Shown one piece after another: positions 11,173-18,228 of a stretch of 64,000 nt of DNA. The DNA comes from Candidatus Nitrosocosmicus arcticus (GTDB taxonomy: Archaea > Thermoproteota > Nitrososphaeria > Nitrososphaerales > Nitrososphaeraceae). Within the stretch, counting starts at the first letter, position 1. Each line of letters starts with the position of its first letter. The DNA lies in assembly GCF_007826885.1 (NCBI RefSeq), contig NZ_ML675580.1, positions 124,001-188,000 on the forward strand, in the 5' to 3' direction. The position numbers were made by a program, and so were the translations under genes. The notes below the pieces were generated by a model. It saw nothing but the letters and a program-made list of their open reading frames with translations. It had not been told where the DNA came from and made no database searches.

Positions 11173-14100
11173 TCAGTAGCTATCCATTGGTCTAACCGTG
11201 GGCTCGTTATACTTAATCCACTCCAGGGTTTTCACGAAGGAAATTGTACTTTCCACTGTAGTAAGAACCGGCATCCCCATTTCTACCGCTTTGCGTCTTA
11301 TTTGGTATTCATCATAAAGCATTCCAACGTATTTTTCAATAGTAGATGTTGATGGTATATTTACTATAAAATTGATTTTCCGTTCAGTAAGTAATGGCAA
11401 TATATTTGGATGTCTTTCGGGCTCGCTAATTTTGTGTACTAATTCCACATTCTCAATTCCAGATTTCCTAAAATATTCTGAGGTATGTTCAGTTGCCAAT
11501 ATTTTGAAACCTAATGCAGATATAAGAGAGACAATCGGAAGTAGTTTTTCTTTATTTCTTGTTCCACCTATTGTAATCAACGCTGCTCCTGCAGTTGGTA
11601 AAGAGTATCCGGCAGCCAGATATGATTTTGAAAGAGCATCATAAAACGAATTCCCAAAACAGGCGACCTCACCCGTTGATTGCATTTCAACCCCCAATAC
11701 AATATCAGCTCCTTCTAACTGCATAAAAGAAAATTGGGGAACTTTAATTCCAAATCCAGATTTCTTGAGCCAATGTTCATTATCTATTGATGGGAAATCA
11801 TCACCAAGAATGGATCTTGCCGCCAATTCTATTAGATTCAAGTTAAAAAACTTTGATACAAAAGGCATTGAACGAGACGCCCTAACGTTAGCTTCAATCA
11901 CTGACACTTCATTATCCTTTACCAAATATTGAATGTTCAGCGGGCCTTTTACATTCAATGCTTTACCTATCTTAACAGTGTAATCAATAATCGTCTCCAT
12001 AGTTTCCCGATTTAGTCGCCACGGTGGAATGCACATCATAGCATCACCGGAATGGATTCCTGCATTATCAATGTGTTCTATAATTGAACCGATAACGATC
12101 TCATTAGTGCTACCAATGGCGTCAACTTCAACCTCTGATGCCTCTTCTAAAAATTTGCTAATCACAATTGGATAGTCAGGACTTATGCTCGAAGCCTCTA
12201 AAATGAATTGTTCGAATTGAGTTTCACTCCAAATAACTTTCATGGCGGCACCACTTAAAACATACGAAGGTCTTACTAAAACAGGATATCCTTCTTCGTT
12301 CGCAAATCTCTTTGATTCTTCCAAATTGGTAAACATTTTCCATGGAGGTTGTTTTATTCCTAATACATCCAATAAGTGGCTAAATTTAGAGCGATCCTCC
12401 GCATTATCAACGTCCTTACTAGATGTTCCTAATATTTGAATATCATACTTACTCAATTTAGAAACTAGGTTATTTGCACTCTGGCCGCCCACACAAGCTA
12501 CTATACCTTTCGGGTTCTCTTTTTCATAAATATCCAAAACCCTTTCCAATGTCAACTCTTCAAAGTATAACCTATCTGGGACATCATAATCTGTGGAAAC
12601 CGTTTCAGGATTACAGTTTATGATAGATATGTTATTTGCACCACTCTTTCTTAAACCAAATACCATGTTGACAGTTGCCCAGTCAAATTCAACGCTACTC
12701 CCAATTCTATATGGCCCAGCTCCAAGTACAATTATAGACCGTTCTTCTTTATCGTTACCAAATGATAGGTCATCAGACATACCGTTGTATGTAAGGTACA
12801 AATAATTTGTTTTTGCGGGCCATTCAGCAGCTAAGGTATCAATTTGCTTTACTACCGGAGTTATCCCGAATTTTTTTCTTAATTCCCTTACCTGATCTTC
12901 TTGAAGATTCAAACAACGACCCACTTGTTTATCAGAAAACCCTAATTTTTTTGATTCTTCAATTAAATGCAAATCAAATTTCGAGTTTTTCAATTCATTC
13001 TCTTTATCAATTACGTTCTTAATTTTAATGAGAAACCAAGGATCAATAGATGAGAGTTTGTTTATCCTATCGATACTAAACCCGACCTTTATTGCTCTTA
13101 CAACGTTGAAAATTATTTCATCATCTGGGTGAATTAATGAGTATTCTATTTTTTCTATAAGAGAAGTGTCTTGATTAGCCTTTGAGGTTTCAACTCGTTT
13201 AGTTATGGAGTTATAATAGTCCTCATCTCCGTCATTAGACACTAACCCATCCTTGCCGATTTCACACATCCTAATTGCCTTCTGTATAACTTCTTCAAAA
13301 TTTTTCCCAATAGCCATTACTTCGCCAACAGATTTCATAGCACTTCCCAATTTTCTTTTTACTAGCTCAAATTTCCTGAAATCCCATCGAGGCATTTTCA
13401 CTACCATATAGTCCAATGCAGGTTCGAAACATGCAGAGGTCACTTTTGTAATCTGGTTAACAAGTTCAGGTAGTGTGTATCCCAGTCCTATTTTTGCGGC
13501 CATATAAGCTAATGGATAGCCTGTAGCCTTGCTAGCTAGTGCCGAAGATCGTGACAAGCGTGCGTTAATTTCAATAGCGCAATATTCATCAGATAAAGGA
13601 TTTAAACCGAATTGGATATTACACTCTCCATTAATTTTACAATATGTTGTGGCTCTTAAGGCTGCATCTCGCAACATATGATATTCTCGATTATTTAGTG
13701 TTTGAGATGGGGCGACAACAATATTGTCTCCCGTGTGGACTTTCATCCCCAATACATTTTCCATATTGCATATAATCACGTTGTTTCCGATAGAGTCCCT
13801 CATTACTTCATATTCAATCTGCTTCCATTCTCCAACGTACTTTTCGATCAGTACCTGGTGAACCATACTCAACGACAATCCTCGTTGTACTATTTCGTGT
13901 AAATCATATTCATTGTATGCCACACCACCGCCCCTACCACCTAAAGTGTATGCCACCCTAATTATCACAGGGAAGCCAATTTCCCTTGACACTTTCAAAG
14001 CCTCCTCATAGGAATAGGCAGTTGCACTATCGAGCACAGGAACGTTACTTTTCAACATTGCTTCCTTAAATTTTTGCCTATCTTCTGTTAACTTAATACC

Positions 14101-14489
14101 CTCTATCGAAGTATTTAGAACTCTCAAATCATATTTTCTAAGAACTTCATTTTCAGAAAGATCAACTCCGCAATTTAAGGCAGTTTGACCACCAAAGCTT
14201 AGCATAATAGAGTCAGGTCTCTCTATTTCAATAACCCGTTCAACAAAATTCCGATTTATTGGTAACAAATAAACTTTGTCTGCGAATTTGCGATCGGTTT
14301 GAATAGTTGCAATATTTGGATTAATTAAAACACTAGTTATACCCTCCTCTTTCAAGGCCTTTAAGCATTGAGAACCAGAGTAGTCGAAATGGCGGCCAGA
14401 TATTTGATCTAGCTTTCGCCCGCTTCTCCGATTTTTATTGCTCCGCTACCGAGTACTAAGACCTTATGTATATCCCTGTTTCGAGGCAT
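11173..14489 (-). CDS. carB: Carbamoyl-phosphate synthase large subunit CarB, split by a 26-nt intron
   Basis: CarB makes carbamoyl phosphate from bicarbonate, ammonia and two ATP for arginine and pyrimidine synthesis, using ammonia channelled from CarA. Exon 1 is 14415-14489 (25 codons from ATG, MPRNRDIHKVLVLGSGAIKI then GEAGE). Exon 2 is 11173-14388 (1071 residues, starting FDYSGSQCLKALKEEG). The joined protein would have 1096 residues, normal for the family. Two ATP-grasp halves follow one another (AYTLGGRGGGVAYNE in the first, RPSYVLSGAAMKV in the second) and a C-terminal MGS-like regulatory domain starts near ITIGGTRNKEKLLP. Without intron removal, translation from the ATG meets TAG two codons after GEAGE. 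It lies downstream of carA. Confidence 0.9.
14389..14414 (-). other. Putative BHB (tRNA-type) intron inside carB mRNA
   Basis: Read on the mRNA, GGCG pairs with CGCC as a perfect 4-bp central helix. Bulges are AAA on the 5' side and AUU on the 3' side. The inner helix GCUAGAU/AUCUGGC (7 bp, one U-G) closes a CAAAU loop. Cutting between bases 2 and 3 of each bulge removes exactly 26 nt and joins codons GAA and TTC in frame. The intron holds an in-frame TAG and its length is not a multiple of three, so it must be removed for a full protein. An outer helix is weak or absent. Confidence 0.8.
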
Positions 14490-14555: not shown

Positions 14556-15677
14556 CTATGATGCCACAATTCCATGAGTCTTTACTAGATCTTTAAACTT
14601 ATCAAAGATGTACAAGCAGTCATCAGGTCCAGGTGAAGCTTCCGGATGAAATTGTACCGCTATAACTGGCTTCTCAGAATGTTTAATGCCTTCAACTGTG
14701 TGATCATCAATATTTTTAAACCATATTTCAAAATCAGTCTTCTCCAAACTATCTAATTCTATACCATATCCATGGTTTTGACTTGTTATTATCGTATGAT
14801 TCGACTCCAAGTCCAGACAGCTTTTGTTTTGACCCCTGTGTCCAAATTTTAACTTATGTGTTTTAGCACCTCCAGCCAAAGCGAGAATTTGGTTGCCTAA
14901 ACATATGCCTAATGTAGGGATGGATCGCTCGATTAACTCAGAAGCAGTCTCTATAGTCTGCTTACAAACTATCGGGTCCCCAGGGCCGTTGCTTAAAACA
15001 ACACCTGCCGGGTTATGAGCCAATATTTGATCGATTGATGTGTCCCAAGGCATTCTCACTACCTGGAATCCAATTCTTAAAAGATTTCTTATGATACTAA
15101 ATTTTGTTCCCGTATCAATTAATACGACTTTTGGAGCTGACGACTCTTTTCCATAATAAGTAGGCTGATTAATTGAAACCTCAGGCATAAAATTATAAGA
15201 ATCATAGTCAAAACGTTCATTATTCCGGTATTCAGACCCATCCATCACAATTTTCGCGTTCATGACACCATTCGATCTGATCTTTTTTGTCAATTCTCTG
15301 GTATCCACATCGCTGATTCCTGGAATTTTCTCGTCATACAGCCATTGATCCAGAGTCTTTTTACAAGACCAATGACTTGACACATTTGATAGATTATTAA
15401 CTATTATTCCTCTTGTTTGAATTCTATCAGATTCAAAATATTTTGGTAAACCAAATTCGTCTAATTCCTTCTGAGATGGAACGCCATAATTACCAATGGA
15501 AGGATACGTAAAGCACAATATTTGTCCTCTATATGATGGGTCACTAAGTGTTTCAGTATAACCGACCATACCAGTATTGAACACTATTTCTCCAGATGCA
15601 CTTGTTGGAAATCCAAACCCATTACCTTCAAAAATAGAACCATCATCAAGAATTAGTTTTGCTTTATAATCAGTAAT
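14556..15677 (-). CDS. carA: Carbamoyl-phosphate synthase small subunit CarA (start unresolved)
   Basis: A glutamine amidotransferase that feeds ammonia to CarB. The N-terminal small-chain domain runs from AKLILDDGSIFEGNGFGFP to about residue 150. The class I GATase domain has the nucleophile loop LGICLGNQILALAGG and the His-Glu pair in AVQFHPEASPGPDD. The conserved N-terminus is in a frame with no ATG, GTG or TTG upstream of a GTG at 15584 that would cut into the domain. The coordinate given is an ATT at 15677 (reads TDYKAKLILDDG). A better-placed ATG at 15714 is one base out of frame across a run of five A (15698-15702). Confidence 0.85.
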   Translation of the reverse strand: MTDYKAKLILDDGSIFEGNGFGFPTSASGEIVFNTGMVGYTETLSDPSYRGQILCFTYPSIGNYGVPSQKELDEFGLPKYFESDRIQTRGIIVNNLSNVSSHWSCKKTLDQWLYDEKIPGISDVDTRELTKKIRSNGVMNAKIVMDGSEYRNNERFDYDSYNFMPEVSINQPTYYGKESSAPKVVLIDTGTKFSIIRNLLRIGFQVVRMPWDTSIDQILAHNPAGVVLSNGPGDPIVCKQTIETASELIERSIPTLGICLGNQILALAGGAKTHKLKFGHRGQNKSCLDLESNHTIITSQNHGYGIELDSLEKTDFEIWFKNIDDHTVEGIKHSEKPVIAVQFHPEASPGPDDCLYIFDKFKDLVKTHGIVAS

Positions 15678-17058: not shown

Positions 17059-18228
17059 ATGCTAAAAATTAAGATCAATAAACATACATTTAGTTTATTT
17101 TTACTCGTAATTTCAACATTCTTTATATCTCAAAGTTACAATACAGCAACTTCATTTGCTCAAACGGAGTCAGGTTCAGCCAGCGGAGAAACTCAGAGTT
17201 CAACCGAATCAATACTAGTTTGCGAATTTGTGCAATTTTGTTCTAACCCGGTAGAATCGAGTAGGAACGACAATGAGACATCCGTTATTTCTCCAGTTAC
17301 AGCAGAGAGTGAAGCTCAAACAACAGCAGAGAGTGAAGCTCAAACAACAGCAGAGAGTGAAGCTCAAACAACACCTGATTCATCAGACGTTTTACCAGAT
17401 GTTACCTCGAATATCTCATTAATAATGACGCCCGATTTACCGGGTAGCGTGGCAGAGGAAGATTCCCAGAACCCGATTAATCAAGATTTATCAGGTGCTA
17501 ATGAAACTCTTCAGATCTCACTTAATGCTACTGATAATAACCAAATGGTAGTACCTGAAAATGCGACGGTAATTACCCCGGATGCTCCAATACCATTTGA
17601 AACCACAGGTGAAAACATTTCGATGACAATTCAAAATAACAATGATACTATCACTACCGGCAATAAATCCAATAATCAAAGTGAGTTTGTAAATACAATT
17701 CCTCTCAATAATTTAACAATGTCAATTGACGATAGTAATAAGTCTCAAGACTCCCCCTTGGAGGTAACCATTGATTCTTTAGGTGCAAATGAGACCATTG
17801 ATTCTTTAGGTGCAAATGAGACCATTGATTCTTTAGGTGCAAATGAGACCATTGATTCTTTAGGTGCAAATGAGACCATTGATTCTTTAGGTGCAAATGA
17901 GACCATTGATTCTTTAGGTGCAAATGAGACCATTGATTCTTTAGGTGCAAATGAGACCATTGATTCTTTAGGTGCAAATGAGACCATTGATTCTTTAGGT
18001 GCAAATGAGACCATTATACTAGACACACCTGTACAAAATGAAAATCAAAGTACTGCATCAAATGAAATCACAAGCTCAGCCACTCCAAACGAAGGCCAAC
18101 AGGACAACACATCAAATGCCAATGACATCCAGTCAAGCTCCAGTCCCAGTACTGAAAATCAAACTACACCCACCTCATTCTTGGATCCGATAATTAATCC
18201 ATTTAAGGAACTTTTTGGACTAAAATAG
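17059..18228 (+). CDS. Exported repeat-rich low-complexity protein
   Basis: A 389-residue protein with a signal sequence (LFLLVISTFFISQS, cleavage near TSFAQTES). The mature part is almost entirely Ser/Thr/Asn/Glu with many N-x-S/T sequons. It has three perfect AESEAQTT repeats (about residues 82-105) and nine perfect DSLGANETI repeats (about 239-319). The C-terminus has a hydrophobic-basic tail (FLDPIINPFKELFGLK) that may anchor it. Two cysteines near residue 55 are the only ones. It is likely a glycosylated surface or matrix protein. The pattern is disordered, so no enzymatic role is expected. It diverges from the glycosyltransferase upstream. Confidence 0.75.
   Translation: MLKIKINKHTFSLFLLVISTFFISQSYNTATSFAQTESGSASGETQSSTESILVCEFVQFCSNPVESSRNDNETSVISPVTAESEAQTTAESEAQTTAESEAQTTPDSSDVLPDVTSNISLIMTPDLPGSVAEEDSQNPINQDLSGANETLQISLNATDNNQMVVPENATVITPDAPIPFETTGENISMTIQNNNDTITTGNKSNNQSEFVNTIPLNNLTMSIDDSNKSQDSPLEVTIDSLGANETIDSLGANETIDSLGANETIDSLGANETIDSLGANETIDSLGANETIDSLGANETIDSLGANETIDSLGANETIILDTPVQNENQSTASNEITSSATPNEGQQDNTSNANDIQSSSSPSTENQTTPTSFLDPIINPFKELFGLK
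17302..17373 (+). repeat. Three 24-bp perfect tandem repeats (AESEAQTT)
   Basis: Three identical 24-bp units inside the exported protein gene. Each keeps the frame. They are DNA-level repeats, not just a protein motif, so they are recent expansions. Confidence 0.95.
17773..18015 (+). repeat. Nine 27-bp perfect tandem repeats (DSLGANETI)
   Basis: Nine identical in-frame copies of a 27-bp unit encoding DSLGANETI. No base differs between copies. Two 90-plus codon frames on the opposite strand exist only because of the repeat. Confidence 0.97.

Follow-up and report, generated by a model that had tools for sequence, protein, structure and literature searches.

The carB gene of the window, by which we mean the whole 64-kb stretch of DNA analysed here, almost certainly carries a 26-nt archaeal bulge-helix-bulge (BHB) intron that would be spliced from the transcript by the splicing endonuclease and the RtcB ligase. 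The intron reads 5'-AGCTAGATCAAATATCTGGCCGCCAT-3' on the carB sense strand, and in the minus-strand reading it stands between ATG CCT CGA ... GAA GCG GGC GAA and TTC GAC TAC TCT GGT. The features of the locus and of the RNA element are listed in Table 1.

The carB locus and the exon join

When the two exons are joined without the insert, they encode 1,096 amino acids with a single terminal stop, GEAGE/FDYSG is restored, and the residues spanning the junction are GEAGEFDYSGSQCLK. Residues 1-180 of the spliced CarB align without gaps with residues 1-180 of E. coli CarB, and the join falls between the codons matching Glu25 and Phe26 of the latter. The join is unambiguous, since the two borders carry different bases and moving the cuts would alter the protein. 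Without splicing, the frame reads GEAGES*, because the second codon of the insert is an in-frame TAG (UAG, 14409-14411), and the coding capacity of the RNA is a 26-residue peptide. The original prediction had placed a 26-nt insert after GEAGE, carrying a TAG, breaking the frame and leaving the conserved CarB sequence upon standard cutting; its coordinates prove exact, and the reading of the frame and of the join given here agrees with it.

Exon 2 alone scores 1302 bits against TIGR01369 over 11176-14355, the curated cut-off being 1027. No second carB above the family cut-off is found in the genome, and carB is thus single copy. Exon 1 shows a pN/pS of 0.15 within the genus, indicating that it is under purifying selection and hence translated. 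The reading frame of carA stops 144 nt short of the exon 1 end. Plain ORF calling places the carB start at TTG 14355, inside exon 2. Elsewhere in the window, an ORF on the plus strand (17059-18228) encodes an Asn/Thr/Ser-rich protein with a signal-like N-terminus and about nine tandem DSLGANETI repeats.

Table 1. Coordinates of the carB locus and of the predicted BHB element in the window
Feature	Position	Strand	Remark
carB exon 1 (25 codons, ATG start; MPRNRDIHKVLVLGSGAIKIGEAGE)	14489-14415	minus	gapless alignment to E. coli CarB 1-25
Putative 26-nt BHB intron AGCUAGAUCAAAUAUCUGGCCGCCAU	14414-14389	minus	phase 0
carB exon 2 (1,071 codons + stop)	14388-11173	minus	TIGR01369 match
carA	14556-15584	minus	from ORF list; directly upstream of carB, start uncertain
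Central helix, 5' strand GGCG (exon 1)	14417-14420	minus	pairs with 14391-14394
Central helix, 3' strand CGCC (intron)	14391-14394	minus	pairs with 14417-14420
5' bulge AAA, predicted cut after second A (14415/14414)	14414-14416	minus	position set by coding join
3' bulge AUU, predicted cut before last U (14389/14388)	14388-14390	minus	
Inner helix, 5' arm GCUAGAU	14407-14413	minus	7-bp stem
Inner helix, 3' arm AUCUGGC	14395-14401	minus	7-bp stem
CAAAU loop	14402-14406	minus	length and sequence variable among relatives
Outer helix, 5' arm ATCGGAG (exon 1 codons Ile-Gly-Glu)	14426-14432	minus	codons frozen in carriers
Outer helix, 3' arm CTCTGGT (exon 2 codons Tyr-Ser-Gly)	14374-14380	minus	codons frozen in carriers

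Architecture of the BHB element

The central helix in the window consists of four G-C pairs flanked by the AAA and AUU bulges. The minimum-energy fold of the intron with its flanks takes the BHB shape, the alternative being a 4-nt 3' bulge. A strict BHB scan, demanding four G-C central pairs, a strong inner stem and 3-nt bulges, matches the carB site and no other on either strand of the 64-kb window; the same scan of six shuffled windows gives zero matches. Outside the bulges an internal loop breaks the outer helix, beyond which ATCGGAG/CTCTGGT pairs well, and the element departs from the strict hBHBh' form. Because its outer helix is split in this way, the carB element is a relaxed BHB. Relaxed BHB motifs are known substrates of broad-specificity endonucleases (PMC6379350), so a strict outer helix is not required for membership of the BHB class. 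Of the motif as first proposed, the central helix, both bulges, the inner stem and the CAAAU loop stand in every detail and are borne out by the fold; the original prediction did not mention the break in the outer helix. With a length of 20-40 nt among carriers, the intron is too short to be of group I or group II.

Selection on the RNA structure

The two bulges are strictly kept. In all 93 unique carriers the 5' bulge has the form A[AG]/[AU] and the 3' bulge the form A[AGU]/U, and in both the conserved form leaves two bases between the central helix and the cut. Three of the four central pairs are also kept in 93/93; the outermost pair is G-C or G-U in 74/93 and G-A in the other 19/93. With this G-A pair and the interrupted outer helix, the element could be cleaved only by an enzyme that accepts relaxed motifs. 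One locus (L161) shows a compensatory double change across the exon-intron border, C-G to T-A (U-A in the RNA), giving GGUG/CACC.

The inner helix uses T-A, C-G, A-T and G-C pairs across the 93 unique carriers. Of the 372 cells for its first four pairs, 371 are paired, and 2,000 shuffles reach 87.9% at most. In 40 aligned sequences the covariation score exceeds all 500 shuffles and lies far above that of slid structures; kinship of the sequences can inflate such shuffle comparisons, whereas the codon control described below is independent of it. In a separate count on the 40 aligned sequences, 95.7% of cells are paired and 40 cells are changed on both sides; the inner helix is 100% paired with 38 both-side changes. 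Structures slid by 1-3 columns have 19-51% of their cells paired.

The codon control rests on synonymous codons: carriers and intronless genes encode identical amino acids here, and codon choice therefore reveals the demand of the RNA. Glycine is GGC in 120/122 carriers and in 2/42 intronless genes, aspartate is GAC in 117/122 versus 13/42, and tyrosine is TAC in 117/122 versus 15/42. The upstream glycine is GGA in 90/93 carriers versus 7/40 intronless genes. Elsewhere in exon 2 of the carriers, GAC makes up 39%, TAC 37%, GGC 23% and ATC 22% of their own codon families. These codons are nearly frozen in carriers and free in intronless genes, so the RNA structure holds the exon sequence and absence of the intron releases it.

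Distribution among relatives

The intron is present in all of the first 30 carB loci fetched (several genera of the window's family). The original prediction had proposed looking in other Nitrososphaeria carB genes for the same or a lost intron; among 164 non-identical carB loci across the order, 122 have the intron at the identical codon boundary and 42 lack it, with a precisely clean splice junction. Intron length in the 122 carriers is 20-40 nt and falls into the three classes modulo 3 as 59/33/30. Reading through the unspliced intron meets a stop within 40 codons in 122/122, and the predicted cuts restore the exact CarB frame in every carrier. Names among the carrier records include Nitrosocosmicus, Nitrososphaera, Nitrosarchaeum, Nitrosotenuis and Nitrosotalea, and the carriers comprise complete single-contig genomes (G006-G008, G025, G026 and G042). 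The intron is absent from many Nitrosopumilus, from a close relative in the window's own family (L052 of G029) and from several deeper families. Judged by these comparisons, the carB intron is no isolated oddity but an old feature that a large part of the ammonia-oxidising archaea has conserved.

In a covariance model search of 250 genomes of the phylum, strong full-length matches are confined to the order. The weak matches are mostly 36 nt long, the length expected for joined, intronless exons; a few others (E > 0.002) have a chance-like appearance. A mobile intron with copies in other genes was considered and rejected, as no genome of the 250 has more than one strong full-length match.

A FastTree tree of exon-2 proteins, with many open forks, requires at least 11 changes of intron state. 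No intron is present in the class-level outgroup or the earliest branches. These changes are compatible with gain or with loss. The intron-bearing, Nitrosopumilus-like genes L183, L187, L192, L206 and L208 (family code f9) are nested inside an intronless clade, which suggests repeated loss, gene transfer or regain.

Some further observations concern individual records. Genome G087 has two carB genes, L157 with the intron and a divergent one (G087:C32:11162-11698) with an ungapped N-terminus and 42% identity. The CarB proteins of L067 and L072, from metagenome records titled Nitrosopumilus, are 97% and 80% identical to that of the window and group with Nitrosocosmicus; the record titles are probably mislabelled. 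At L022, L023, L025-L031 and L034-L036 (same family, mostly genus code g6; Nitrososphaera-like), carA overlaps or abuts carB and the usual carB start codon is replaced by TCG or GCG, and many of them show an RBS-like GGAGG upstream. At L027 and L028 the exon-1 frame, from a stop up to the intron, is devoid of ATG, GTG and TTG.

Splicing machinery of the host

Two members of the splicing endonuclease family are encoded in the genome, an alpha (L147, G000:C10) and a presumed beta (L148, G000:C3). L147 is closest to the catalytic subunits of Sulfolobus tokodaii and Aeropyrum pernix (2cv8, 3p1z, 3ajv) and retains the active-site Tyr, His and Lys. Its Lys39 aligns with K44 of A. pernix, which lies within the crenarchaea-specific loop shown to confer broad substrate specificity (PMC6379350). 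L148 is without the active-site His and looks like the structural (beta) subunit. Its gene (G000:C3:188186-188440) shares a contig with carB, from which it is about 50 kb away, and lies shortly past the right end of the window. The genome has one RtcB ligase. At the gene level, the host appears to possess a hetero-oligomeric, broad-specificity splicing endonuclease and a ligase, an enzyme assignment that rests on homology.

Proposed splicing and alternative explanations

The carB transcript is expected to fold into a BHB built from exon 1, intron and exon 2. An (alpha-beta)2 tRNA-splicing endonuclease would cleave each 3-nt bulge two bases in, RtcB would ligate the exons, and the excised intron would be released, probably as a small circle. 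Full-length CarB would then be encoded by the spliced mRNA only. We infer the cutting, the joining and the enzymes behind them from what is already established for splicing in archaea. The BHB intron reading of the insert, put forward in the original prediction, is strengthened by the 122 carriers with their compensatory changes, stops and frozen codons, by the precise absences and by the machinery genes. Splicing might moreover be regulated, and the intron retained, in order to tie the supply of carbamoyl phosphate (for pyrimidine and arginine) to endonuclease and ligase activity, with the excised circle perhaps acting further; this idea draws on the unspliced RNA giving a short peptide only, and we consider it unlikely.

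The hairpin sits at the frame break, where it could instead act as a stimulator of programmed frameshifting or of translational bypassing across the 26 nt, and archaeal cbf5 introns were formerly mistaken for frameshifts (PMC2738675). However, a frameshift needs a constant offset, and intron lengths in all three classes (59/33/30) leave no single shift that works; 59 of the 122 introns even preserve the frame and yet bear a stop. The frozen exon codons match a BHB and not a slippery site. Bypassing of the known type depends on a landing codon that matches the take-off codon, and the final triplets seen in the introns (CAT, AAA, TAA, CAA, CAG, AAT and others) are neither GAA nor GAG. Frameshifting and bypassing are therefore extremely improbable. 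Hardly any probability attaches either to the insert being a frameshift mutation or an assembly error, with carB a pseudogene or starting inside exon 2, although a plain ORF caller does begin at TTG 14355. The same insert occurs in many independent assemblies, complete ones included, exon 1 is under purifying selection (see above), and this is the sole carB of the genome. No internal start is conserved, and in 35/122 carriers none of ATG, GTG and TTG occurs within the first 40 codons of exon 2. Each of these readings, from frameshifting to an internal start, was tested and rejected.

Cutting and joining are separable, and in Haloferax the endonuclease processes a BHB that lies in the 5' UTR of an mRNA (PMC7714728), so the main effect of cleaving the carB element might be to control or degrade the mRNA, few exons being joined. 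We regard this as very improbable, since the cuts join the frame to exact CarB in every carrier, RtcB is encoded and, with no other carB, CarB needs a joined mRNA.

If the intron is spliced as proposed, CarB supply would be made dependent on tRNA splicing. The intron would represent a second protein-coding BHB case, with very strong comparative support and in a core metabolic gene whose synonymous codons are frozen by RNA structure. The hosts are globally important ammonia oxidisers and include cultured genera, so the proposal is testable at once, and the roughly ten changes of intron state across the tree provide material for studying intron gain and precise loss. A further implication is that the start sites annotated for carB in such genomes may be wrong.

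Comparison with known systems

The cbf5 BHB intron of Crenarchaeota (Desulfurococcales, Sulfolobales) is 16-44 bp long and shows precise losses; cbf5 was scored intronless in Cenarchaeum and Nitrosopumilus, and no other protein-coding intron had been confirmed by 2009, though some were predicted (PMC2738675). A 2020 paper, which itself describes a 5' UTR BHB, lists no other reported archaeal BHB intron than that of cbf5 (PMC7714728). The original prediction called such introns rare, with cbf5 as the classic case, and knew of no carB case. We found no earlier report of one in the open-access literature; one paper mentioning both carbamoyl and BHB (PMC2614490) is unrelated. By its predicted form, the carB intron belongs with the BHB introns of protein-coding genes, a very small class of which cbf5 is the type.

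Like the cbf5 intron, the carB intron (20-40 nt) is a short BHB intron in a protein-coding gene, at a conserved protein site, in a host with a hetero-oligomeric endonuclease and with precise losses in some lineages. It differs in its gene, which serves pyrimidine and arginine synthesis, and in its clade, the Nitrososphaeria; and cbf5 splicing is experimentally shown, whereas we infer carB splicing from sequence. With the BHB introns of archaeal pre-tRNA and pre-rRNA it shares the central helix, the 3-nt bulges, cuts two bases in and the same presumed enzymes, but it lies in an mRNA and its codon-built outer helix is split by an internal loop (relaxed). The Haloferax HVO_1309 element (PMC7714728) is likewise a BHB in mRNA, processed by the splicing endonuclease; it lies outside the coding region, whereas the carB element interrupts the coding frame.
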